Shown one piece after another: positions 2,218 through 23,084 of a stretch of 23,084 nt of DNA. Origin of the DNA: a virus. The DNA lies in IMG/VR virus record IMGVR_UViG_3300050821_002534, positions 1-23,084 of that record; one strand, 5' to 3'. Position 1 is the stretch's first letter, and each line of letters opens with the position of its first letter. The position numbers were made by a program, and so were the translations under genes. The notes beneath the pieces were generated by a model that saw only the letters and a list, made by a program, of their open reading frames with translations, was not told where the DNA came from and searched no databases.

Positions 2218-4404
2218 CTATTTCGCCTCGCTACTTTCCGAAGCGGAATCTTGTGCCATCTGGGCTTGATGGGCTTGGTCACTGGCCTGCGATTGGGAAG
2301 CATTCGCGGCCTGCTGACTCGCTAATTCCTTCGCCTGACCGTGTTGCATGGTGGATAGCGCGGCCTCGTGCGCTTGGTCGAACAACTGACTCACTACCTC
2401 GTGATACATTTGCATACGCTCGCTGGAAACCTGGGCCTTGGTGCTAATCTCAGCGATGAGAATCTTGACCTCGTTGTCCATCTTCGCCTTTTGCAAAGCG
2501 AATTGGTTGTCAACAATCTTCCCAAGCTTCTCTTGATACAACTTCTGATTTTCCCCAACCATCAACTGGAGTTGTTGCTGAGTTTGTTGGAGTGATGCCT
2601 GCAACTGTTGGGTCTGTTGCGCCCCACCGTTGTCGGGGTTCAGGATTTGGAAGATTTGGTCACCAACTGGGCCGAGGTTCTTGAGTCTGACGCTGAGGGC
2701 GAAGATTTGCTGTTTAATGCCTGGGTCAATGGGGAGTTCAGCAAGGTTCGGTAAAAGGAGATCAACGAAATTGTCTGCTTGATCCCGTTCAGACTGATAC
2801 GATGGACCTGTGGATATGGTAACCTCATGCTCCCCCTCATCCATATTGAAAGTTACTTCCTGCCCGTTCTCATCCGTAAACTTTTGGTTAATCTTAACGG
2901 TCTGATGCGTATCATCAGCCTTTCTAACTCCCACTTCTCTAGCACCGTCGTATATATGGGGAATGAGGTCGTTGATGATTCGACCTGAATACTCAATTCC
3001 CATATCATAGGCGTCGATGAAGTGGAAGGAGCCTTTGTCCTCGCTTTGGTTGATTTCCTTGAGTGCGACGCCGGATTTGTCATTGAGCCTCTGGACGTTT
3101 GTGGGGAGTCCGCTAAGGCCCATTGCGGACCTGATTGCTTGGCGGGTCGCTTCGGCACCAATTTCGAGGGCCTGAATCGGGGGTTCGAACTGTGGACGTG
3201 TCGGGAGGGGAAGAACATTCTGCCCCCCGGCATCTGTCGTGGGGTCAACCTGTAGATAAGCTCGTGGAACAGTGTTCGCTGTCTGCCACTCCTCTTTGTG
3301 CGACTCAAACTGGCCTACATACCCAACAAAAGGAGCCTTGGGGGTCATGCCAATTAACTCGGCTTCGCATGTCCTGTAATAGTTGTATAGCTGCTGGGGG
3401 TCGCGGGCCAACCGAATGAGGGATTGGAACATCCGCTTCGGGCCTGTCGATTCGTTGAGGTATAATTCCTTCCCAAACAGCGGGACAATTGGAATGTACT
3501 TCCCTGCCCATTCATGACGCTCCAGAATCTCAATCCCATTGGTGATGTACTGCATAATGGTTCGTTCTTCCACTACACGGGTACCCTGAATGGTGTGTTC
3601 CCCAACCGGCAACTCATCATCAAACATGGCTTGAGGGCCATTGGGGGTGTCAACCATGTGGAGGTCGCGCTTCCGTGTCTCGACACGCCAGTACTCAGCC
3701 ACCTGAATGCTATTTTCCTTGATCCACTGTGGCGCAAGAGACTGTTGTTCGTCGTTGAAGTCGTGGGTGTCCGCGTCGGGCCAACGCTTCTTGAATTCCT
3801 TCCTCGGAACTTGATCAAGCAAGTAACAATACTTGGCGTCTGAACAATCTATTTCTTTACAATCTGGATCAAAATAAACTGCATCAGGGTTAGGTATTCG
3901 CTTGATGCGGATTTCCTGATCAAAGCCCTTCTCGGAGCAATAGCAGGTAACAATCTTCCAATAGCCGTACGACCGCTGACAAAGGGACTCGAAGGCCGTC
4001 GCATACGCGGTCTGTGCATTCGATTTGTACTCAATCTCCCGAATCAGGTTCCCACGCAACTCGGCGGTCTTATCATTCGCCCCACTGCCCCTTGGCACTA
4101 CCCGAATGGCCCGCTTGTTCTGCCGGACATCGTTAATCAGTTGGTTGATGTATTGGCCGAGTTCATCAAACGAGAGGCAAGGTCGAGAGGCATCCTGTCT
4201 CTTCTTCTTTTCCTTCTCAGGCCACCCATTACCAGACACATACTCCATATCCGTCTGGGCTTCCTGTCTAATCCATTGCCACTGGTCCTCACAATAGGCA
4301 AACCTATCGCGGACCTCAATCAGAATCTCTTCATCCTCAGCTGTGCCCCTGAAGTTGGTGGTGGACTTGGCAGCGCCGAATGTCAATCCTCGTGAGTCAC
4401 TCAT
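2218..4404 (-). CDS. Portal protein, P22 gp1-like
   Basis: Dodecameric ring at one capsid vertex through which the terminase pumps DNA and to which the tail attaches. The 728 residues closely match P22 gp1 in length (725). The N-terminal half has a P22-portal look: RQDASRPCLSFDELGQYINQ, then NDVRQNKRAIRVVPRG, then the RGNLIREIEYKSNAQTAYA segment and IPNPDAVYFDPDCKEIDCSDA. The C-terminal third is Gln-rich and helical, like the portal barrel. The ATG overlaps the stop of the preceding small gene in an ATGA, and no strong ribosome site is seen, so translation is probably coupled. It directly precedes the scaffold gene. Confidence 0.95.
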   Translation of the reverse strand: MSDSRGLTFGAAKSTTNFRGTAEDEEILIEVRDRFAYCEDQWQWIRQEAQTDMEYVSGNGWPEKEKKKRQDASRPCLSFDELGQYINQLINDVRQNKRAIRVVPRGSGANDKTAELRGNLIREIEYKSNAQTAYATAFESLCQRSYGYWKIVTCYCSEKGFDQEIRIKRIPNPDAVYFDPDCKEIDCSDAKYCYLLDQVPRKEFKKRWPDADTHDFNDEQQSLAPQWIKENSIQVAEYWRVETRKRDLHMVDTPNGPQAMFDDELPVGEHTIQGTRVVEERTIMQYITNGIEILERHEWAGKYIPIVPLFGKELYLNESTGPKRMFQSLIRLARDPQQLYNYYRTCEAELIGMTPKAPFVGYVGQFESHKEEWQTANTVPRAYLQVDPTTDAGGQNVLPLPTRPQFEPPIQALEIGAEATRQAIRSAMGLSGLPTNVQRLNDKSGVALKEINQSEDKGSFHFIDAYDMGIEYSGRIINDLIPHIYDGAREVGVRKADDTHQTVKINQKFTDENGQEVTFNMDEGEHEVTISTGPSYQSERDQADNFVDLLLPNLAELPIDPGIKQQIFALSVRLKNLGPVGDQIFQILNPDNGGAQQTQQLQASLQQTQQQLQLMVGENQKLYQEKLGKIVDNQFALQKAKMDNEVKILIAEISTKAQVSSERMQMYHEVVSQLFDQAHEAALSTMQHGQAKELASQQAANASQSQASDQAHQAQMAQDSASESSEAK

Positions 4405-5728: not shown

Positions 5729-6331
5729 TTACGAATATGAATCTGCTTGACTACTGTGCTGTCCGCTCAAAATCTTGCCTGCGAAGCCATTGGGGCCACG
5801 GTAGATGCCAATGATTCCACCAGGTTCAACATCGAGGGCGTCGATGTCATTGTGGAGGATATGCCCCACCTCGTGATCATTTGAGGCATGTTGGACAATT
5901 AGCGAAGGCCCTTGTTTCGACAGGATATCCCCAAGCACATTCTTATACCTTGACCTAAACCACGCCAACGACTCACCACCCGGCACCGGCTCATCAGGAC
6001 TGTCTGCATATTCGCTAAGGCGTTGCTTGTTCGCGGGTGACTTCTCCTGCCCCGCCAACTCACCGATGTTCCAAGGTCGGAGGGCACAAAGCCTTTCAGC
6101 CATCAATCCCTTGTCACCCTTCAAAACAATATCCAAAGTCTCAGCCGCACGGCGAAGATCGCTCGAATAAGCTTGAGCAAAGTGAACACCTTGTAAAAAC
6201 TTTCTAGCTTCCTCCGCTTGTTGTCGACCAGTAGAATCAAGGTTAACATCCTTGAAGCCACGAAACTTGTTGCCAGCATTGAGGTCAGTTTGGCCATGAC
6301 GGATAATGTATAGAACCGGTTGAGGGGCCAT
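5729..6331 (-). CDS. Histidine phosphatase (phosphoglycerate-mutase-like fold)
   Basis: Hydrolyses a phosphate ester through a phosphohistidine intermediate; the substrate is unknown. The family core is complete: RHG at 11-13 with catalytic H12, a second Arg in SSDLRRAAET (60-61), acidic E91 in NIGELAGQ, and the second His, H148, in LIVQHAS. Its 200 residues are typical of the small members of the superfamily such as CobC/SixA-like or PhoE-like proteins. The ATG overlaps the previous stop (TAATG). It is unusual to meet this enzyme in the middle of a phage head operon. It could alter host metabolites or a signalling phosphate, but that is inference. Confidence 0.9.
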   Translation of the reverse strand: MAPQPVLYIIRHGQTDLNAGNKFRGFKDVNLDSTGRQQAEEARKFLQGVHFAQAYSSDLRRAAETLDIVLKGDKGLMAERLCALRPWNIGELAGQEKSPANKQRLSEYADSPDEPVPGGESLAWFRSRYKNVLGDILSKQGPSLIVQHASNDHEVGHILHNDIDALDVEPGGIIGIYRGPNGFAGKILSGQHSSQADSYS

Positions 6332-6995: not shown

Positions 6996-7135
6996 TCCCA
7001 TTTCCCCTTCGTTGCCACATACCGACCAAGCGCTAGCAATTCCCAGAAGTCCAGCTTACCGGGGAATAGGTCCTCATAGCGTTTGACCTGTTCAAGCTTC
7101 TTTAGCAAGGATTGCCGACCCTGTTCTAACTCCAC
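6992..7135 (-). CDS. Very small hypothetical protein (47 aa)
   Basis: A short helical protein beginning VELEQGRQSLLKKLEQV from a GTG at 7135, then DLFPGKLDFWELLALGRY. An in-frame TTG four codons upstream (7147) is an alternative; only a weak GGAAA is seen upstream of either. Its stop overlaps the next ATG (ATGA), which supports a real coupled gene. It is the first gene after the large terminase. Function unknown. The 56 nt between it and the terminase stop hold nothing I can name. Confidence 0.55.
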   Translation of the reverse strand: MELEQGRQSLLKKLEQVKRYEDLFPGKLDFWELLALGRYVATKGKWE

Positions 7136-7191
7136 AAACGTTTCCAATTCTTAAACATAGGTGTTTGCGCAGGTGCGGCAACGTCTTTTTC

Positions 7192-8676
7192 TCAAGACCA
7201 TGCAGAAACTGGTCTGTCGACCTGCACGCCTTGACGCTGTGGGGGCTTGACGACCATCCGCGACAGGCGTGATTCCAAATATCGGGTGCAATCCATCAAA
7301 TGGTCATTGTCCTTCACGACCCTCCCCCTATCATCCCTTCGATACAAGCGAAACTCCGCGAGCCAGCTTTGGAGGGAATTGAAGACCTTGAGCCTGCCGG
7401 TTGACATACGGTTCCAGACGGAATAGAGTCCACTTTCAACACCGTTGTCTGCGAGTTCGAGATGGAGTCCAAGAGACTTATAGTCATTGAGAAGCTGTGA
7501 CCCGTCTCGTTGGCTACGTCCGCGAGAAGCTGGGTCAATAAATCCGGGAATCCAATCGCCCGGAGCTTTGATTCCATGTACGTGGACAGAAGGTTCTGAC
7601 TGTCCCCGCTTATATGCATGAGTAAGGTATAACGTGTCGGTTTCACGATCTATCGCTCCCCACACTGCGGCGGTGTTGTTCCAGCCAACGTCCATGCCGT
7701 ACCCACGCGGCCAGTGAGCCGGTATAGCAAACGGTGCAACAAGAAGGTCGGTCTCGGGAACTGGGTATATAGCACCAGCACCGAGTTGGGGGATACCCTT
7801 GGAGCGCGCATCACGTTGGAAGGGTGGTAGAGATTTCCACAATTCATCCTTTGCCTCCTTCGATAGGTGCGGGGCATCGTCCCAGGTGGCCATGACAATG
7901 AATCGGCCTGCGATGTCGTTCGTGTTCGCGGGGAGTTGGCCATCTGGTAAGAACTGAAGCACCACCTCGCTCATGCCATACAACGGGGTGAACGTCAACA
8001 TCAGCATCCCATTGTTAGTCATCGTGCGCATCAGGCATTCGACGTAAATCTCCAGCGATGGCTCCTCGTCCAACCATATTACGTCTTGTTCAGTGCCTTG
8101 GAACGCTTCGCGGCGTTGATCGTAGGATTTGAAGATGAGCATGGAGTCTTGACCGCTGGTGTGTCGAACATAGACAATCTCAACGGTGTCAGCGACCCCA
8201 CCCGTACCTCTGACGATCCTAGAAATGCTATCACCTGGGATGAGTCCAGTTCCCCACGCTCCCACAGGTCCAAGCAACTTGTTCTGAAGGATTTCCCTAA
8301 CCGTCTTACCTGTGTCTCCTGCTGCCCACGCCCTGATGGCTTTGTCATACCGTCGTCCTTTCCACCACCCCGGATACTGACCTGTGAGGTGGAGGGCCAT
8401 CTCATACCCGCCAACTCCTTCAGTCTTACCCACACGGTTCGCAGCGAGCATCAACCTCTCGCGATGCGCATTGCCAGCCTCAAAGAATTCCATGTGCTTG
8501 GTGTATTTGTCACGTGCGAGGGGACCGACTTCGGGGTAGTATGTGCGTATCTTTGTACGTGACGCTATTTGCTGCTTACGCTCCACCAGCGCAATGAGTT
8601 CTTCCTTCTGCTCACGCGACAAACGCATGAGTCGGGTAGGGTCATTTAGCTGGGAGCGTATCTCGTTCAGGTTCAT
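7192..8676 (-). CDS. terL: Terminase large subunit (P22 gp2-type)
   Basis: ATP-driven motor and nuclease that cuts the replicated DNA and pumps it through the portal. The ATPase domain shows Walker A AANRVGKT (78-85), Walker B DVIWLDEE (198-205) with the catalytic acidic pair, and the coupling motif TFTPL (228-232). The C-terminal RNase H-like nuclease starts at YGMDVGWNN (first Asp D329), followed by a FIDPASRGRSQRDG segment and late acidic residues near KDNDHLMDCTRYLESR. The 494 residues are normal for the family. Its ATG lies 35 nt inside the preceding gene, with only a weak ribosome site, so coupling is likely. Confidence 0.97.
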   Translation of the reverse strand: MNLNEIRSQLNDPTRLMRLSREQKEELIALVERKQQIASRTKIRTYYPEVGPLARDKYTKHMEFFEAGNAHRERLMLAANRVGKTEGVGGYEMALHLTGQYPGWWKGRRYDKAIRAWAAGDTGKTVREILQNKLLGPVGAWGTGLIPGDSISRIVRGTGGVADTVEIVYVRHTSGQDSMLIFKSYDQRREAFQGTEQDVIWLDEEPSLEIYVECLMRTMTNNGMLMLTFTPLYGMSEVVLQFLPDGQLPANTNDIAGRFIVMATWDDAPHLSKEAKDELWKSLPPFQRDARSKGIPQLGAGAIYPVPETDLLVAPFAIPAHWPRGYGMDVGWNNTAAVWGAIDRETDTLYLTHAYKRGQSEPSVHVHGIKAPGDWIPGFIDPASRGRSQRDGSQLLNDYKSLGLHLELADNGVESGLYSVWNRMSTGRLKVFNSLQSWLAEFRLYRRDDRGRVVKDNDHLMDCTRYLESRLSRMVVKPPQRQGVQVDRPVSAWS

Positions 8677-9106
8677 GCGTCGAATCTTGCGTAGATTGTG
8701 CGGGGATGTCGATTACACTGCTTTCGTGTTGCTTGAGGTCGAGGTCCAGCAACTTGGTGAGGCGTTCGTCGACTTGCTCGTCTGACATGGTACCAATGGA
8801 ACCCGAAAGCTCAACAGGCTGCGTCACCCTTCCTTCAGTCCTCTCAGCCATCTCTCTCAACATGAGAACCGAGGCCATCCGGCTGTCACCGGTGAGGGTG
8901 TTGATTATGGCTTCTTCAATGCCCTTACGAGTATCGGCACTGGCAAGGATGCGCTCATAAATCTTAGTAATTCGTGCTTTTCGTGGACGCCCTGAAGGAT
9001 TACCTGATTGCCCAGGTTTCCAAGGTGGCCTAAGCCCTTTAGTGCGATCATTCCGTTCGGTGTTTCCACCGTCAACCTGTGCAAGGGCCTTACTGATGGG
9101 GTCCAT
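8642..9106 (-). CDS. DUF5681-type protein, probable terminase small subunit
   Basis: The 154-residue product has the basic motif RPPWKPGQSGNPSGRPRK (residues 26-43), diagnostic of the DUF5681 family, which is often found just upstream of large terminases. A helical middle (KIYERILASADTRKGIEEAI) is followed by an acidic, Gln/Glu/Asp-rich tail. Position and overlap with the large terminase suggest it is the DNA-recognition small subunit, though the family is not experimentally well defined. AAGGA lies 3 nt from the ATG. The start overlaps the 41-residue membrane ORF before it. Confidence 0.75.
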   Translation of the reverse strand: MDPISKALAQVDGGNTERNDRTKGLRPPWKPGQSGNPSGRPRKARITKIYERILASADTRKGIEEAIINTLTGDSRMASVLMLREMAERTEGRVTQPVELSGSIGTMSDEQVDERLTKLLDLDLKQHESSVIDIPAQSTQDSTHEPERDTLPAK

Positions 9107-9215
9107 TGTCCTTATGCAACATCCAAGCGATAGCTAGTACGGATAGAGCGGTGATGACAAAACTACCGACTTCGATGATTCGTAGGGCAAGGCCGATAAA
9201 TTCGAGGGCGCTCAC
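9090..9215 (-). CDS. Small single-pass membrane protein (41 aa)
   Basis: Too short for normal ORF cut-offs. A GTG at 9215 overlaps the previous stop as GTGA, and the product runs MSALEFIGLALRIIEVGS followed by FVITALSVLAIAWMLHKD, giving one hydrophobic helix of about 20 residues with a basic C-terminal side. It ends 17 nt inside the DUF5681 gene. The chain of overlaps and the clear membrane helix argue for a real gene. It could be a lysis-related or other envelope peptide; nothing decides this. Confidence 0.62.
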   Translation of the reverse strand: MSALEFIGLALRIIEVGSFVITALSVLAIAWMLHKDNGPHQ

Positions 9216-9415
9216 GTCACTACCTGCATGGTTGTAGGACCACCATAACCACTCTGACGCACACACCAGCTAACCCTAATATTGCGGTCAATGCGCCGGA
9301 TGTGCTTATTGTCGATCCAAGTGGCGTTCTTTTTGCGGACCATATCCCATGCTTGGTCTACTGATACGTGGTATGTGGTGTATTTGTCAACAACGACTTC
9401 TATCGGTTTAGCCAC
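9212..9415 (-). CDS. Hypothetical protein (67 aa)
   Basis: Unrecognised. MAKPIEVVVDKYTTYHVSVD is followed by AWDMVRKKNATWIDNKHIRR and a basic, Arg-rich end of the helix region (RIDRNIRVSWCVRQSGYGG). The start is the GTG at 9415, overlapping the GIY-YIG stop by 16 nt; no strong ribosome site. Two basic clusters suggest nucleic-acid contact, but there is no domain match by eye. Confidence 0.6.
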   Translation of the reverse strand: MAKPIEVVVDKYTTYHVSVDQAWDMVRKKNATWIDNKHIRRIDRNIRVSWCVRQSGYGGPTTMQVVT

Positions 9416-9729
9416 TCGTAATTTGTACCTTTGCAGGCTGTGTTGTACTTTGGCTGGAAATCCCAGATCATGCGCTTTTCGATGCCTCTAGCGTCACGCT
9501 CTGTTTCCGTATACTTAAATTCAATCCGTGTCCCCTCTGCCAAGGCGCGACGTAATTGCGCGTGCTTGGGATGACTGATACGATGTAGGATGTTTTTTGC
9601 TGACCCAATGTAAAGAGCTTCATCTGAGTTGTTTCGCACGCCCCAGACAGCGTAGACACCTGGACCTAGAAGCAGGTTTATTGTCTTCATTTCCATTGAG
9701 TTGATTTGAGACAGAACTATCGTAGTCAT
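9400..9729 (-). CDS. GIY-YIG family endonuclease (free-standing)
   Basis: A small DNA nuclease, probably a mobile homing-type enzyme. The GIY-YIG core is visible: GVY at 24-26, ALYIGSAKNILHR with YIG at 40-42 and the catalytic Arg R50, the metal-binding Glu E84 in GIEKRMIW, and Asn N96 in QPKYNT. At 109 residues it is a bare catalytic domain without an obvious DNA-binding extension; residues after 97 are only a short tail. The ATG at 9729 is preferred although AGGT upstream is weak; ATGs at 9696 and 9690 are alternatives. A hairpin (9736-9769) covers the ribosome-site region. Insertion between the lysis-like genes and terminase is typical of phage homing nucleases. Confidence 0.88.
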   Translation of the reverse strand: MTTIVLSQINSMEMKTINLLLGPGVYAVWGVRNNSDEALYIGSAKNILHRISHPKHAQLRRALAEGTRIEFKYTETERDARGIEKRMIWDFQPKYNTACKGTNYEWLNR

Positions 9730-9735
9730 TTGGTT

Positions 9736-9769
9736 GGGGACCTGTAAACTGTCAGGGGCCAGGGTCCCC
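9736..9769 (-). promoter_or_regulatory. Hairpin over the GIY-YIG ribosome-site region
   Basis: GGGGACC (9736-9742) is perfectly complementary to GGTCCCC (9763-9769), with a 20-nt loop. In the minus-strand transcript the 3' arm contains the only Shine-Dalgarno-like AGGT and ends 7 nt before the ATG at 9729, so folding would hide it. Sequestered ribosome sites are known for phage T4 homing endonuclease genes. The rest of the gene-free stretch 9770-9877 shows only a small GAGCG-GCAA-CGCTC hairpin (9797-9810). Confidence 0.5.
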
Positions 9770-9877
9770 TACAACGATTTAACTACCGAAGGGGGTGAGC
9801 GGCAACGCTCGTGCAACAGTGAGGGGTAGGTGGGTTCTCGTGGAGTGTGTTGGTCACGGTTTGCCGCTCCTGCAATT

Positions 9878-9906
9878 GTTATGCCATACCCTCAGGGGAT
9901 TGTCAA
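9878..9906 (-). promoter_or_regulatory. Sigma70-like leftward promoter before GIY-YIG/terminase genes
   Basis: On the minus strand TTGACA (9906-9901) is followed by a 17-nt spacer and CATAAC (9883-9878), 4 of 6 to TATAAT. The spacer holds a short dyad CCCTGAGGG (9889-9897) that could be an operator. It lies just after the 35-residue membrane ORF and points at the GIY-YIG, terminase and head genes. Confidence 0.62.
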
Positions 9907-9910
9907 GTGT

Positions 9911-10018
9911 TTATTCGCCGACCTCCAGAATACCAATCACCCTCAGCACAATCAGTATCGAAAGCACCACCCCACCGCCGATCATGATTCCTAGGCCGAA
10001 GGCGGCGAGGGGGTCCAT
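9911..10018 (-). CDS. Tiny single-pass membrane protein (35 aa)
   Basis: Begins MDPLAAFGLGIMIGGGVV and continues SILIVLRVIGILEVGE, so nearly the whole peptide is one hydrophobic helix. GAGGA lies 4-5 nt before the ATG, and this ATG follows directly on the stop of the preceding 33-residue ORF (TAAATG). The size, helix and spacing argue for a real membrane peptide. It may belong with the neighbouring lysis-like genes, but no motif identifies it. Confidence 0.62.
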   Translation of the reverse strand: MDPLAAFGLGIMIGGGVVLSILIVLRVIGILEVGE

Positions 10019-10120
10019 TTAGTCCTCAGCACACTGGATGGTGTGGATGCCGAATAGCCATCCGAGAAAGTCATCGAGGGCGCTACAGTCCTGGGAGCCG
10101 TCGTTGTCGAATAGGATCAT
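10019..10120 (-). CDS. Tiny acidic protein (33 aa)
   Basis: MILFDNDGSQDCSALDDF, then LGWLFGIHTIQCAED: acidic, two Cys (C12 and C30). Supported by a very good ribosome site (AAGGAG, 3 nt from ATG) and by the immediately following ATG of the membrane peptide. Function unknown. A weak hairpin lies between it and the upstream gene (10135-10158). Confidence 0.55.
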   Translation of the reverse strand: MILFDNDGSQDCSALDDFLGWLFGIHTIQCAED

Positions 10121-10134
10121 AATCTCCTTGTTAA

Positions 10135-10158
10135 AGCCGATTTACTTGACCCTCGGCT
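10135..10158 (-). terminator. Weak stem-loop, possible attenuator or terminator
   Basis: AGCCGA (10135-10140) pairs with TCGGCT (10153-10158) around a 12-nt loop. In the minus transcript the stem is followed by only TTTAAC, so termination, if any, would be partial. It lies between the 89-residue membrane protein gene and the two tiny ORFs. Nothing else is seen in 10121-10193. Confidence 0.35.
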
Positions 10159-10193
10159 AACGGGCTGTACCGATCAGCACGGCCATAAGATCG

Positions 10194-10463
10194 TTATGCA
10201 TCCGCCCCAGGGGCTTTGTAGAGTCCCGCGAGGGTGGGTAGCAGGACGGCGATGACCGCGAGGTGGGGGTATTGTTTGATGATGGCCTCACCTGCAGGGG
10301 TTAGGGCAAAGGCCGCGAGGGCCGCAAATATACCCGCAACAACATGGGTTACCTTGCTGATAGCCGCGCTCGCTTTAGCCGCTACTGGAGCGGGTGGGGC
10401 GATTTGTTGGGCGGGGGTGAGAGGTGCTGTCGTGATTTTGCCATCAGGTCCAATCGTTGTCAC
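10194..10463 (-). CDS. Small membrane protein, possibly holin-like (89 aa)
   Basis: A soluble Pro/Ala-rich N-terminus (residues 1-33, with TTAPLTPAQQIAPPAPVAAK) precedes two hydrophobic helices: about 38-57 (THVVAGIFAALAAFALTP) and about 66-84 (PHLAVIAVLLPTLAGLY). Two short helices with a small loop are compatible with a class II-type holin, but no endolysin is visible beside it, so the role is open. The GTG at 10463 has GGAGG 5 nt upstream and overlaps the previous stop (GTGA). Confidence 0.7.
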   Translation of the reverse strand: MTTIGPDGKITTAPLTPAQQIAPPAPVAAKASAAISKVTHVVAGIFAALAAFALTPAGEAIIKQYPHLAVIAVLLPTLAGLYKAPGADA

Positions 10464-10777
10464 AGTGCCTCCAAATCTTTAATCACCGCCTTGACCGCCG
10501 CAATCACAGTCGCGTCAAAAGTGATGCTGAGGCCATTCGCGGAGGCCGCGTCGCCAGCGGTTTTGACTGCACCGATGACAGCGCCAAGAACTGTTTGACC
10601 AGTGGTGACAACACTGGAGGTCTTGGAACCTGCAAGCGCAGCCAGTCCAGTAATCTCTGCTTGGTTGGCTTGAAGGAAGCCAGCAAGCTTCAAAGCGTCC
10701 TCACCCGCGAGTTCAATACCGGCTTTGATCTTTTTGGCAATTCCTACGATACCGCTTTCAATGGTTGCGAGGCTCAT
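10460..10777 (-). CDS. Ala-rich amphipathic protein (105 aa)
   Basis: Unrecognised. It is almost entirely small residues and helices: SLATIESGIVGIAKKIKAGI, then LKLAGFLQANQAEITGLAAL, GQTVLGAVIGAVKTAGDAA, and a C-terminal AAVKAVIKDLEAL. Composition suggests an amphipathic, perhaps membrane- or coat-associated, helical protein. Its ATG overlaps the previous stop (ATGA), and its own stop overlaps the next GTG. It sits between a second small protein and the two-helix membrane protein, in a putative lysis or late-accessory cluster. Confidence 0.68.
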   Translation of the reverse strand: MSLATIESGIVGIAKKIKAGIELAGEDALKLAGFLQANQAEITGLAALAGSKTSSVVTTGQTVLGAVIGAVKTAGDAASANGLSITFDATVIAAVKAVIKDLEAL

Positions 10778-11085
10778 TTTGTCATCTCCGTGGTTTCAAA
10801 ATTTGAAAGATTATTCGCTGCTAGCATATCCTGGGGGACAGTTAAGGTCAAGAATCCCTTTGTTTCCAACTTCTGCAAGGTCAGGTACATCGCCGTCGCG
10901 GCGTCCTGCATCGCCTTGCCCTCGCCAATGTATTGTGCCCACTTTGAGGAACCGGAGCGCCATACGAAGGAAATCCATGAACTATACATGGCCGAGACGA
11001 ATGAGTTTGCCGCTTGGCGTTCGAGGCCTGCGTTCTTGGCTGACTCATACCATGATACCGGATTTGGGAATTCAAGGAGGCCCAC
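10774..11085 (-). CDS. Hypothetical protein, first gene of leftward block (103 aa)
   Basis: Unrecognised. GLLEFPNPVSWYESAKNAGL is followed by a Trp/Ser-rich middle (YSSWISFVWRSGSSKWAQYIG) and helices around MQDAATAMYLTLQKLE. AGGAG lies 7 nt before a GTG start at 11085, and the stop overlaps the next ATG. It is the most upstream recognisable gene of the minus block, next to the divergent control region. No domain recognised. Confidence 0.7.
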   Translation of the reverse strand: MGLLEFPNPVSWYESAKNAGLERQAANSFVSAMYSSWISFVWRSGSSKWAQYIGEGKAMQDAATAMYLTLQKLETKGFLTLTVPQDMLAANNLSNFETTEMTK

Positions 11086-11225
11086 AAGTAACTCCTAAAA
11101 ATTGGCCAGTTGTCGATTACTCCACATGTTACTGACGAAGGACTGGCCGCTCCCCGCGTGGACTACCACGATTGAGGCGTCAAAAAGGAGTTTCGCATAT
11201 TGGAAACCCGAATGCAAGGGAAAAG

Positions 11226-19982: not shown

Positions 19983-20008
19983 TGGGGAGTAGCACAATTG
20001 GCGGTGCG
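19983..20008 (+). other. tRNA-like 5' fragment (acceptor strand plus D-arm)
   Basis: TGGGGAG, then TA at the tRNA 8-9 positions, a perfect D-stem GCAC/GTGC (19992-19995 and 20004-20007) around AATTGGCG, and G. This is the 5' part of a tRNA in correct spacing. It pairs 5 of 7 with the acceptor CGGCCCA of the downstream tRNA-Asn, versus 7 of 7 for that tRNA's own strand. No anticodon arm follows; the HNH ribosome site does. Probably a remnant. Confidence 0.45.
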
Positions 20009-20027
20009 TCAAGGGAGGAGTGATCCA

Positions 20028-20519
20028 ATGAAGAACGGACTATATACACTAGTGATTGCTCCTCCTAACTATCCGGGAAAGAAGTATCGTGGCCGCTATT
20101 GTTATGAGCATAGTCTGGTTGCGTGGAAGAAATACCATAGGCTTCCTGAAGGTAGCGAGGAAGTTCATCATATCAACGACAACAAACGAGACAATAGACC
20201 TGAGAATGTTGAGTACCTGACTGCTGAAGAACACAAGAAGTATCATGGGGCTTTAAGGGCAGTGCCTCCAGTGGTCATACCATGCTGTTTTTGTGAAGGT
20301 ACGTGCTTTATTGTAGCTAGAAACCACCGCCATGCAGTAAAATGTGGCCGCACTGAGTTCCATTGCAGCCGAAAATGTTCTATTAAACACCAACGCACTA
20401 AGGGTTTGATGCGTAAAGGTGGACGAAAACCAAAAGTTTGGGCCGTGCCTCAACCGGGACAGGACGTGACTGTTACTCACGCATTTACTGGTTCGAATCC
20501 AGTCGGCCCAGCCAGTTAA
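20028..20519 (+). CDS. HNH endonuclease with C-terminal zinc finger, overlapping a tRNA gene
   Basis: Free-standing homing-type nuclease. The ATG at 20028 has GGGAGGAG 7 nt upstream; an earlier TTG (19998) lies inside a tRNA-like fragment. HNH core: YCYEHSLVAW (E27, H28), then EEVHHINDNKRDNRPENVEYL with H47-H48, N56 and N60, and HKKYH ahead of the linker. A Cys group (C86, C87, C89, C93, later C106, C113, C117) can form a zinc finger. Residues 138-163 are encoded by the tRNA-Asn gene; the frame stays open through it and stops 5 nt beyond. The protein proper therefore probably ends near residue 137. Confidence 0.88.
   Translation: MKNGLYTLVIAPPNYPGKKYRGRYCYEHSLVAWKKYHRLPEGSEEVHHINDNKRDNRPENVEYLTAEEHKKYHGALRAVPPVVIPCCFCEGTCFIVARNHRHAVKCGRTEFHCSRKCSIKHQRTKGLMRKGGRKPKVWAVPQPGQDVTVTHAFTGSNPVGPAS
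20439..20514 (+). tRNA. tRNA-Asn (GTT)
   Basis: A full 76-nt cloverleaf with encoded CCA. Acceptor TGGGCCG/CGGCCCA is 7 of 7 paired, discriminator G, then CCA. T8, G9; D-stem CCT/AGG with A14, A15, G18-G19 and A21 in place; anticodon stem CGTGA/TCACG with loop CTGTTAC, anticodon GTT at 20472-20474; variable loop of 5; T-arm ACTGG-TTCGAAT-CCAGT. The D-stem is only three pairs. The gene lies inside the 3' end of the HNH reading frame. It may supply Asn-tRNA for AAC/AAU-rich phage genes. Confidence 0.9.
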
Positions 20520-20662: not shown

Positions 20663-23084
20663 ATGCCCGTTCAAGGAAGTTTGTGCCGAGGTTGTGCGTT
20701 GGAGGAGAAGGGAGAGATTTTTATTCCTGCTGATGGGCTTGGGACGAATAAGGTGCTTTTAGTTGGAGACTCAGGTTGGATACAGGAGGCGAAAAATGTT
20801 AGACGAATGCGTGAACAAACTGTCGGTACACCTTTCTCTGGGCCAAGTGGCTGGTTTATTGAGCGAAATCTTAAACGTATTGGAGTGGCGCGGAATAGTT
20901 TCACAATCGCTAATTCGTACTGGTGTAAGGCACCTTTCCTTGGATTTACGGATAGACCAGAACGATTCCCAGACGCAGCCCTTGCCTTGGAGCATTGCCG
21001 TCCATACCTCGACGATCTTATAAACCGGATGCAACCCAAAGCCATAGTCCCAATGGGCAATGTGGCCCTCCGACGCATCACAGGCTGTTCAGGCATCGAA
21101 CGCCACCACGCCTATTACATGAGCACGCCCTACGGCATCCCTGCGATTCCAACATTCCACCCCTCCTACATCCTGAAGGGGAATGCCAAGCTGTCGGGGC
21201 TGTGGTGCTATGCGGTCAAGAGGGCGCTTGACGTTGCGCTCAAAGCGGAGCGACCAAAACAGTATGATCTATTGCTTGACCCCTCGTTGGATGAGGCGCG
21301 GCGATACCTGGGGCGGGCGGGGATGCTGGTTTGTGACATTGAAACTCCAATGTCTGATGACGTGGAGGAGGACGAGAGGGATGACGCATCATACACGATT
21401 GTTCGCGTCTCTTTTAGTAATCATGCTGGCACTGCGATTTCTCTTCCTTGGCAACCCCCTTATATATCTCTTATTCGTGATGTGCTTGCCGCTGCCAAGG
21501 AACTTGTTTTCTGGAACCAAAACTATGACCTTCCTCGCCTTCGCGCTAACGGTTGCAATATCGGTGCGCGGGTGGTGGATGCGATGTTTGCGTGGCATTG
21601 GCTTCAAAGCGACTTACCGAAGGCGCTAGGCTTCGTTGCCCCCCTTTTCGTCTGTGTCGAGCCGTGGAAGCAGATGGCTAACCAGGAGCCTGCGAGGTAT
21701 TCGGCCCTCGACAGCGCGATTACGATGGATACCTACCTAGGGATTAAGTCCCAGCTTGAGTCTGAGGGCCGATGGAAGGCGTTTGAGAGGCATTGTGTGG
21801 AGATGTTCCCGGTCCTTGACCGGATGTCGGGGGCGGGGGTGATGCTTGATTTGGAGCACCAGGGCCAGTTTAAGAAGCGGTTGGAGGGCGAACGTGACCT
21901 TGCGTTGGCGAAGTTGCAGGAGCAGGTACCCTATGAAGTGAAGCCCAAAAAGATATACAAACGCTTGCCTAAGGATATGACTAATATCCTTGAGTTTGGT
22001 GAAGGTGATTCTATTGGCTGGGAACGTGTTCTCCCATTCAATCCTTCATCCCCCAAACAGGTTAAAGAGCTAATCTCCTACCTAGGCCTCCCCATCCCCA
22101 AGGCAAAGGGCGAAGACCGCGAATCGACCGAGGCGAAGCACCTGAAATCGTTGGCGCGTAAGAACAAAATCTTTGGTACAATCCTTGAATACCGTGAGCG
22201 GGCGAAGCTGATTGATGCTTATATGTGGGAGGTGGGGCAGGATGGCAAGGTTCACACTACGTTTAGTTTTCATCCAAGTACTTGGCGTAAGTCTGCCCGC
22301 AATCCGAACGTACAAACTGTACCCAAACGAAATGATCTTGCGGCGGAATTTCGACGGATGGTTATCGCCAGTCCAGGTAACATACTCGTTGAATGTGACT
22401 CATCAGCTATTGAAGCGGTATTGGTGGGGTTTTTCGCTAACAGTCCGAGGTACATGGAACTCGCCAAGCGAGGGGTCCACAAGTGGCTCGCTAGTGAATA
22501 TGCACAAAGACCTGTGAGCAAAACGGAGCCATTGTATGACCAGATTAAACGGGTGGTGCATCTCAGCAATTACATGGGGTCACCACAACGCATTTGTGAA
22601 GAATATAGTCATGTTTTTGCTTCGGTGAAAGAGGCACGGACGTTGCAGGACTTTTATTTCTCCACGCCTGCGGGACAAGACATCAAAAAGTGGCATCAAC
22701 AAGTGCTGGAGCAGGCCCACAAGGAACGCTACCTTGAAAATCCGTATCGTTATCGTCACTATTTTTATTCTGTGTTTCAGTATTCAAATGGGCAGTGGGT
22801 ACTTGGAGACGACGCGAAACGCGCGGTGGCGTTTCTCCCTCAATCCACCGCCTCAGCCCTTCAAACCGAATTCGTGTTGGAGATTGAAAGGACGCGACCT
22901 GCCCTTACTAAGACACTCAGGTGGGTTATACACGATTCCATTGTCTGCGAAGTGCCAGTGGAATCCGCCTTGGCTCTTGCCAAGGACCTCAAGGGTGTGA
23001 TGCAGATGGCGCATCCCCTTCTCGGGGGGCTGGCGATTGGTGCTGAGGTCAAGGTGGGGCCGAATCTTAAGGATATGGAGGTGG
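20663..23084 (+). CDS. UDG domain fused to family A DNA polymerase, 3' end cut by window edge
   Basis: Replicative polymerase with an N-terminal uracil-DNA-glycosylase-like domain. GGAG lies 5-6 nt before the ATG; 807 codons are open. UDG part (about 1-200): four Cys at 8, 11, 88 and 112 match the Fe-S ligands of family 4/5 UDGs, with GTPFSGPSG and TFHPSYIL (H166). Motif A reads GDSGWIQE instead of GEAPGxxE. 3'-5' exonuclease: DIE (225-227), NQNYD (D289), YSALD (Y346, D350), all intact. Polymerase: RNPNVQTVPKR, motif A DSSAIE (579-584), motif B around KRVVHLSNYMG (629-639), motif C HDS (757-759). In motif B the usual Arg, Lys and Phe are Lys, His and Tyr. It follows the tRNA/HNH cassette. Confidence 0.92.
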   Translation, partial: MPVQGSLCRGCALEEKGEIFIPADGLGTNKVLLVGDSGWIQEAKNVRRMREQTVGTPFSGPSGWFIERNLKRIGVARNSFTIANSYWCKAPFLGFTDRPERFPDAALALEHCRPYLDDLINRMQPKAIVPMGNVALRRITGCSGIERHHAYYMSTPYGIPAIPTFHPSYILKGNAKLSGLWCYAVKRALDVALKAERPKQYDLLLDPSLDEARRYLGRAGMLVCDIETPMSDDVEEDERDDASYTIVRVSFSNHAGTAISLPWQPPYISLIRDVLAAAKELVFWNQNYDLPRLRANGCNIGARVVDAMFAWHWLQSDLPKALGFVAPLFVCVEPWKQMANQEPARYSALDSAITMDTYLGIKSQLESEGRWKAFERHCVEMFPVLDRMSGAGVMLDLEHQGQFKKRLEGERDLALAKLQEQVPYEVKPKKIYKRLPKDMTNILEFGEGDSIGWERVLPFNPSSPKQVKELISYLGLPIPKAKGEDRESTEAKHLKSLARKNKIFGTILEYRERAKLIDAYMWEVGQDGKVHTTFSFHPSTWRKSARNPNVQTVPKRNDLAAEFRRMVIASPGNILVECDSSAIEAVLVGFFANSPRYMELAKRGVHKWLASEYAQRPVSKTEPLYDQIKRVVHLSNYMGSPQRICEEYSHVFASVKEARTLQDFYFSTPAGQDIKKWHQQVLEQAHKERYLENPYRYRHYFYSVFQYSNGQWVLGDDAKRAVAFLPQSTASALQTEFVLEIERTRPALTKTLRWVIHDSIVCEVPVESALALAKDLKGVMQMAHPLLGGLAIGAEVKVGPNLKDMEV

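Follow-up and report, generated by a model that had tools for sequence, protein, structure and literature searches.

Fusions of a uracil-DNA glycosylase (UDG) domain to a family A DNA polymerase (PolA) are already known from phages, namely gp205 of phage PaBG and the polymerases of SPO1-like phages; the original prediction for the present locus also mentioned such architectures in phages. The literature describes UDG–exonuclease–PolA fusions in PaBG and related phages (PMC7412058). In Pseudomonas phage PaBG gp205 and the Lupandier group, an N-terminal UDG is likewise followed by a 3′–5′ exonuclease and a family A polymerase, and the portion of that paper drawn on here describes the UDG as presumed active and mentions no altered motif A (PMC7412058). 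PaBG gp205 is not a close sequence relative of the protein analyzed here. PDB 9qhs is a solved structure of a polymerase of 1142 residues whose N-terminus is UDG-like (profile match E 9.9e-25), and the old name of family 4 proteins in PDB titles derives from SPO1-type polymerases.

Results

The window, by which we mean the entire stretch analyzed, is a linear IMG/VR virus fragment of 23,084 bases; it encodes a P22-like portal (2221–4404, minus strand), a terminase (7195–8676, minus strand) and, at 20663–23083 on the plus strand, a UDG–3′–5′ exonuclease–family A DNA polymerase fusion of 807 codons that is open at the contig end. A GGAG lies six bases upstream of the ATG of this gene at 20663, and the frame stays open to the end of the contig; the protein start, MxVQGSLC, is common to the window protein and L002, an 82% identical relative. 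A UDG-like N-terminal domain (residues 1–200, 20663–21262, plus strand) is delineated by Pfam, AlphaFold2 and fold matches. It is followed on the same strand by a 3′–5′ exonuclease-like region (21263–21922), in which D225, E227 and D350 are invariant among aligned fusions, and by a family A polymerase domain (22031–23083), in which D579, K629 and D758 are invariant. Specifically, the UDG family PF03167 matched with an E-value of 6.7e-15 and 55.8 bits, passing the curated cut-off of 24.3 at the superfamily level, and DNA_pol_A matched with an E-value of 1.2e-36 and 126.9 bits, with D579 and D758 as the catalytic Asp residues of motifs A and C. E-values this low indicate that neither domain match is due to chance, and the order of the three domains within one chain is that of PaBG gp205-type polymerases. 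AlphaFold2 modeled the whole chain with a pLDDT of 92.1 and a pTM of 0.90, and the UDG domain alone with a pTM of 0.91. In structure comparisons the UDG domain gave the family 4 enzymes 1l9g and 1ui0 as top PDB matches in Foldseek (E 1.2e-11, TM about 0.7), followed by UdgX, and the remainder of the chain matched the Klenow, Taq and Bst polymerases.

Several features of the surrounding sequence were recorded alongside. Residues 421–456 (21923–22030) form a second hypervariable stretch, a linker preceding the polymerase domain that is 31% identical to L002 and carries large inserts in relatives. The synonymous difference between the window and L002 is 0.58 in the UDG part (20663–21262) and 0.74 in the exonuclease and polymerase parts (21263–23083), as if the UDG part had been exchanged more recently than the remainder. 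About 150 bases separate the end of a tRNA-Asn(gtt) gene (20439–20514) from the start of the polymerase, and an HNH endonuclease ORF (19998–20516) reads through the tRNA gene. At the corresponding place L002 has a nucleoside deoxyribosyltransferase-like ORF directly upstream of the polymerase (8593–9998; Pfam E 2e-5, below cut-off), together with an ORF that resembles a radical SAM protein by eye and has no Pfam hit; the window lacks both. A histidine phosphatase superfamily gene (5732–6331, minus strand; Pfam E 1.2e-30) lies among the structural genes.

With respect to the polymerase itself, the position equivalent to residue 762 of the E. coli enzyme is a His in the window (H633, 22559–22561), within the pattern K629-x3-H633-x3-Y637, and among 74 UDG-linked phage PolAs below 80% identity, 24 have His here. 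A survey of viral PolA sequences retained only those with Phe, Leu or Tyr at 762 (PMC9069017), a screen by which His-762 polymerases would have been filtered out. His at this position may mark an undescribed polymerase group.

Within the UDG domain, the four Cys residues of the original prediction are all present and align with the Fe–S ligands of family 4 enzymes: Cys8 and Cys11 (20684–20695), Cys88 (20924–20926) and Cys112 (20996–20998) are thus predicted cluster ligands. Also as described there, motif B reads HPSYIL (residues 166–171, 21158–21175), and motif A, GE(A/G)PG in family 4 and GEAPG in the comparison originally drawn, is replaced by GDSGW (residues 35–39, 20765–20779). Features absent from that description are an acidic residue, Glu42 (20786–20788), that follows motif A and hardly varies among aligned fusions, a 9-residue insert at about residues 45–53 (20795–20821) that forms a beta hairpin in the model and is present only in the window protein and L002, the base-stacking Phe58 (20834–20836; F65 of UdgX), and Asn84 at the uracil-recognition position (20912–20914; N91 of UdgX). 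Hence the stacking Phe, motif 3 Asn and motif B HP(S/A) of family 4 are all retained, as F58, N84 and H166-P167-S168. The family 4 Lys three residues past the Asn (K83 in Thermus) is Trp87 in the window, and this Lys is kept in 18 of 67 phage fusions.

The original assignment to family 4 or 5 can be narrowed. The AlphaFold model suggested for checking it gave the UDG domain a pLDDT of 94.8, and fold and profile comparisons place family 4 closest. With a profile of the window family, the matches to family 4 structures lie at 1e-56 to 1e-58 and that to 2d3y, which we take to be the family 5 (UDGb) entry, at 7.8e-11; a family 5 identity was rejected on this distance. UdgX-like cross-linking was also rejected, as the domain has neither the KRRIH R-loop with its His nor GEQPG. 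On profile comparison the domain is family-4-like, but it scores far below the curated cut-off of the family 4 model TIGR00758 of NCBIfam (57.5 bits, cut-off 125.3), and it also falls below that of the UdgX profile (52.9 bits, cut-off 189.95).

Phage records and viral contigs were searched and yielded 67 UDG–polymerase fusions below 90% identity, a set biased towards the window query. At the second position of motif A, 57 of these fusions have Glu and 8 have Asp, and 43 of the 67 read GEAPG. The stacking Phe is kept in 64 of 67 and the Asn likewise in 64 of 67; conservation of H166-P167 among the viral contigs is to some extent a product of the search, whose pattern included the HP of motif B. 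Mapped on a tree of 87 rows, Asp requires 4 changes (shuffled mean 14.2), which indicates that Asp arose more than once, in the window clade and in the SPO1-like and PMBT14 lineages. No close prophage copies turned up in a search of bacterial genomes, and a second scan gave distant UDGs only.

The window falls within a phage clade of 13 members (support 100/99), the relatives having been widened by a further scan, in which motif A usually reads G[D/E]S[P/G/V][W/Y]. GDSGW itself is found in the window and in L103 and L113, both at about 50% identity to the window; GDSPW occurs in L021, L101, L104 and L107, with single instances of ADSPW (L102), GDSVW (L022), GDSPY (L023), GESPW (L020) and GDAGT (L002), and L099 has lost the loop through an in-frame deletion. 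The fifth position, Gly in family 4, is Trp in 10 and Tyr in 1 of the 13. The four Cys, the Asn and HP are kept in 13 of 13 members, which excludes the possibility, raised with the original prediction, that the Cys ligands are not conserved. The UDG Pfam score is 70–77 bits in L103 and L113, 55.8 in the window and 44.3 in L099. A one-off sequencing or assembly error was rejected as the source of the motif and insert, as L002, from another metagenome, has the insert and L103 and L113 have GDSGW. By alignment, then, GDSGW is not a one-off, and an altered motif A is typical of the whole clade; a literature search found no earlier description of this altered-motif clade or of the loop erosion described below, and no enzyme assay of any clade member.

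The polymerase loci of the clade vary in other respects as well. In L113 the GDSGW UDG is a separate 201-residue protein (7084–7686) upstream of the polymerase ORF (7974–11120), which contains a LAGLIDADG-like, intein-like insert. The polymerase ORF of L104 (8001–11486) has intein-like inserts (Pfam intein splicing domain and HNH). In L023 (1262–4827), L101 (1272–4019) and L107 (7905–10599) the polymerase lies in two ORFs, split between the exonuclease and polymerase parts, and in L023 the two are separated by an ORF that resembles a methyltransferase by eye.

A subclade with support 100/100 unites the window with L002 and L099, which are 82% and 66% identical to it, respectively. All three retain the four Cys, N84 and HPS, and the changes are concentrated around motif A: L002 combines GDAGT with the 9-residue insert, and L099 has the in-frame loop deletion. 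Between the window and L099, 21 of the 22 residues from 36 to 57 differ, a clustering reached by 0 of 5000 scan shuffles; between the window and L002 the count is 12 of 22, reached by 22 of 5000. No comparable clustering is seen in three other pairs from the clade. Outside this patch the UDG of L099 diverges 1.35–1.48 times as fast as its polymerase (0.73–1.10 in other pairs), and the window/L002 ratio is 0.87, indicating no relaxation (identity 0.86 in UDG and 0.84 in the polymerase). Taken together, the clustering and the divergence ratios indicate that constraint on the catalytic-loop region is loose in this subclade, with the remainder of the window domain under normal constraint. The erosion case comprises three sequences, and the in-frame deletion is that of one sequence from a single metagenomic contig.

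A different departure from GEAPG is seen in the LysYB1, vB_EalM-132 and PMBT14 lineages, which have lost both the Phe and the Asn. A thymidylate synthase family gene is present in 3 of 3 records of these pocket-less lineages (L005, L010 and L013) versus 5 of 32 other records tested, an association of about 0.009 in a hypergeometric count made after seeing the data. Among the six window-clade records tested, none has such a gene and none has a dUTPase, the absence carrying little weight for the window as a 23 kb fragment. The two departures from GEAPG thus look different, the pocket-less lineages having thymidylate synthase and the window clade showing none in the records tested. A modified-thymine genome as the cause of the motif change was also considered, and was rejected as neither gene occurs in any of those six records.

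Discussion

The sequence, predicted fold, conservation pattern and loop erosion observed here can be brought together in one proposal, to which we assign about an even chance: that the domain is a polymerase-tethered, family-4-derived uracil/DNA-binding module whose excision activity was weakened or lost through the motif A loop change. The pattern suggests a role in sensing or holding uracil rather than in its efficient removal. Specifically, an Fe–S-stabilized domain would ride beside the exonuclease and polymerase, flip uracil into the F58/N84/H166 pocket, and there hold it or excise it slowly, with the result that the polymerase would be slowed, kept on the DNA or handed to the exonuclease. 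Uracil binding, lost excision and the influence on synthesis are our inferences; a binder in which excision is weak or gone would be expected to show this pattern, a changed loop with the pocket kept. The vaccinia UDG offers a possible precedent for a function separate from excision: according to De Silva and Moss (2003), it is reportedly needed for DNA synthesis independently of glycosylase activity. Mutants of UdgX offer a guide to the residues concerned: the motif A change E52A costs about 100-fold in k2/Km, N91A and H178A are inactive yet fold normally, and F65A unfolds (PMC10776899). Since N91A and H178A fold normally, retention of N84 and H166 in the loop-deleted L099 is not explained by folding, and by analogy it points to continued base recognition. 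Counting against the proposal, the window keeps an acid in motif A along with E42, F58, N84 and HPS, and catalysis may persist; the absence of relaxation between the window and L002 outside the patch and the small number of eroded sequences also weigh against it.

The retained acid and pocket lead to the possibility, which we hold to be real but rate well short of even, that the domain is a working glycosylase with a variant motif, Asp36 replacing the family 4 Glu, that removes uracil from template or new DNA during phage replication. Position 36 is acidic throughout the clade, with Asp in 12 of the 13 members and Glu in L020, the replacement of Glu by Asp is conservative and Asp may substitute for it, and E42 is present in all members except L002 (Asp) and L099 (deleted), alongside F58, N84, HPS and the Fe–S Cys. 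The retention of GDSGW in the diverged L103 and L113, in the latter as a stand-alone protein, indicates a motif held by selection, as if functional, and the canonical GEAPG of most phage fusions is in keeping with activity. Such an enzyme fits poorly with the loop insertion, the Trp and Gly replacements and the loop deletion within the window's own subclade, and with the fall in UDG Pfam score from L103 and L113 through the window to L099. The original prediction of a reader rather than a normal glycosylase is accordingly borne out in part: the clade-wide motif change, the eroded subclade loop and the kept Asn, His and Fe–S ligands fit a reader or weak enzyme better, and the conservative Glu-to-Asp change, the presence of E42 in the window and the intact GDSGW of two diverged relatives speak the other way.

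At the opposite extreme, the domain might serve only as a structural or processivity element that holds DNA or braces the exonuclease, base recognition having gone. The SPO1-like and PMBT14 records (L005, L010 and L013) keep a fused domain despite loss of the Phe, Asn and motif A, and vaccinia D4 again provides a precedent. Unlike these SPO1-like domains, however, every member of the window clade, including L099, keeps F58, N84 and H166, and the normal folding of UdgX N91A and H178A means that the fold alone does not require the Asn and His; we regard this explanation as improbable. Still less credible, to the point of being very improbable, is a change of base specificity, with stricter reading of uracil or reading of another base. 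By motif alignment, Trp39 (Tyr39 in one relative) presumably sits at the place of the thymine-excluding Tyr of family 1 UDGs, and the prevalence of Trp or Tyr there across the clade would suit such a role. In human UNG that residue, Y147, obstructs the methyl group of thymine as it enters (PMC11289083). L002, however, has Thr at the equivalent of position 39, N84, which sets uracil recognition, is unaltered, and neither a thymidylate synthase nor a dUTPase gene was found in clade contigs.

A stronger form of the tethered-binder proposal, which we think doubtful, is that the PolAs of this clade carry a built-in uracil reader, an ex-glycosylase sensor that would bind uracil without excising it and gate synthesis or proofreading. 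The uracil bound would, on this equally doubtful view, lie in or beside the template. If true, such a reader would independently parallel the read-ahead pocket with which archaeal family B polymerases sense uracil, and a polymerase-linked uracil binder without excision would make a useful uracil-detection tool. More generally, such fusions are common in phages, and the clade constitutes a natural experiment on whether a fused UDG excises, reads or merely braces, with a series that runs from a canonical GEAPG lineage (L024) through the fixed altered motif of the GDSPW/GDSGW clade to a subclade in which the loop is lost and the pocket kept.

With regard to known systems, the window domain shares its fold, four Cys, stacking Phe, Asn and HP(S/A) with family 4 UDGs (Thermotoga TM0511, 1l9g/1vk2, and Thermus UDGa, 1ui0), and differs from them in GDSGW, Trp87 in place of the motif 3 Lys, the 9-residue insert and the polymerase fusion. 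UdgX of Mycobacterium smegmatis is also family-4-derived with an altered motif A, but it has the KRRIH R-loop, the cross-linking His and GEQPG, all three of which the window lacks. The SPO1-like/PMBT14 polymerases (LysYB1, vB_EalM-132 and PMBT14) resemble the window in having a UDG-like domain on PolA with a changed motif A, whereas their stacking Phe and Asn are also gone and the window clade keeps the pocket. Vaccinia D4 likewise places a UDG within viral replication machinery; unlike the window fusion, it is a family 1 enzyme and a separate protein that acts through A20 with a family B polymerase.
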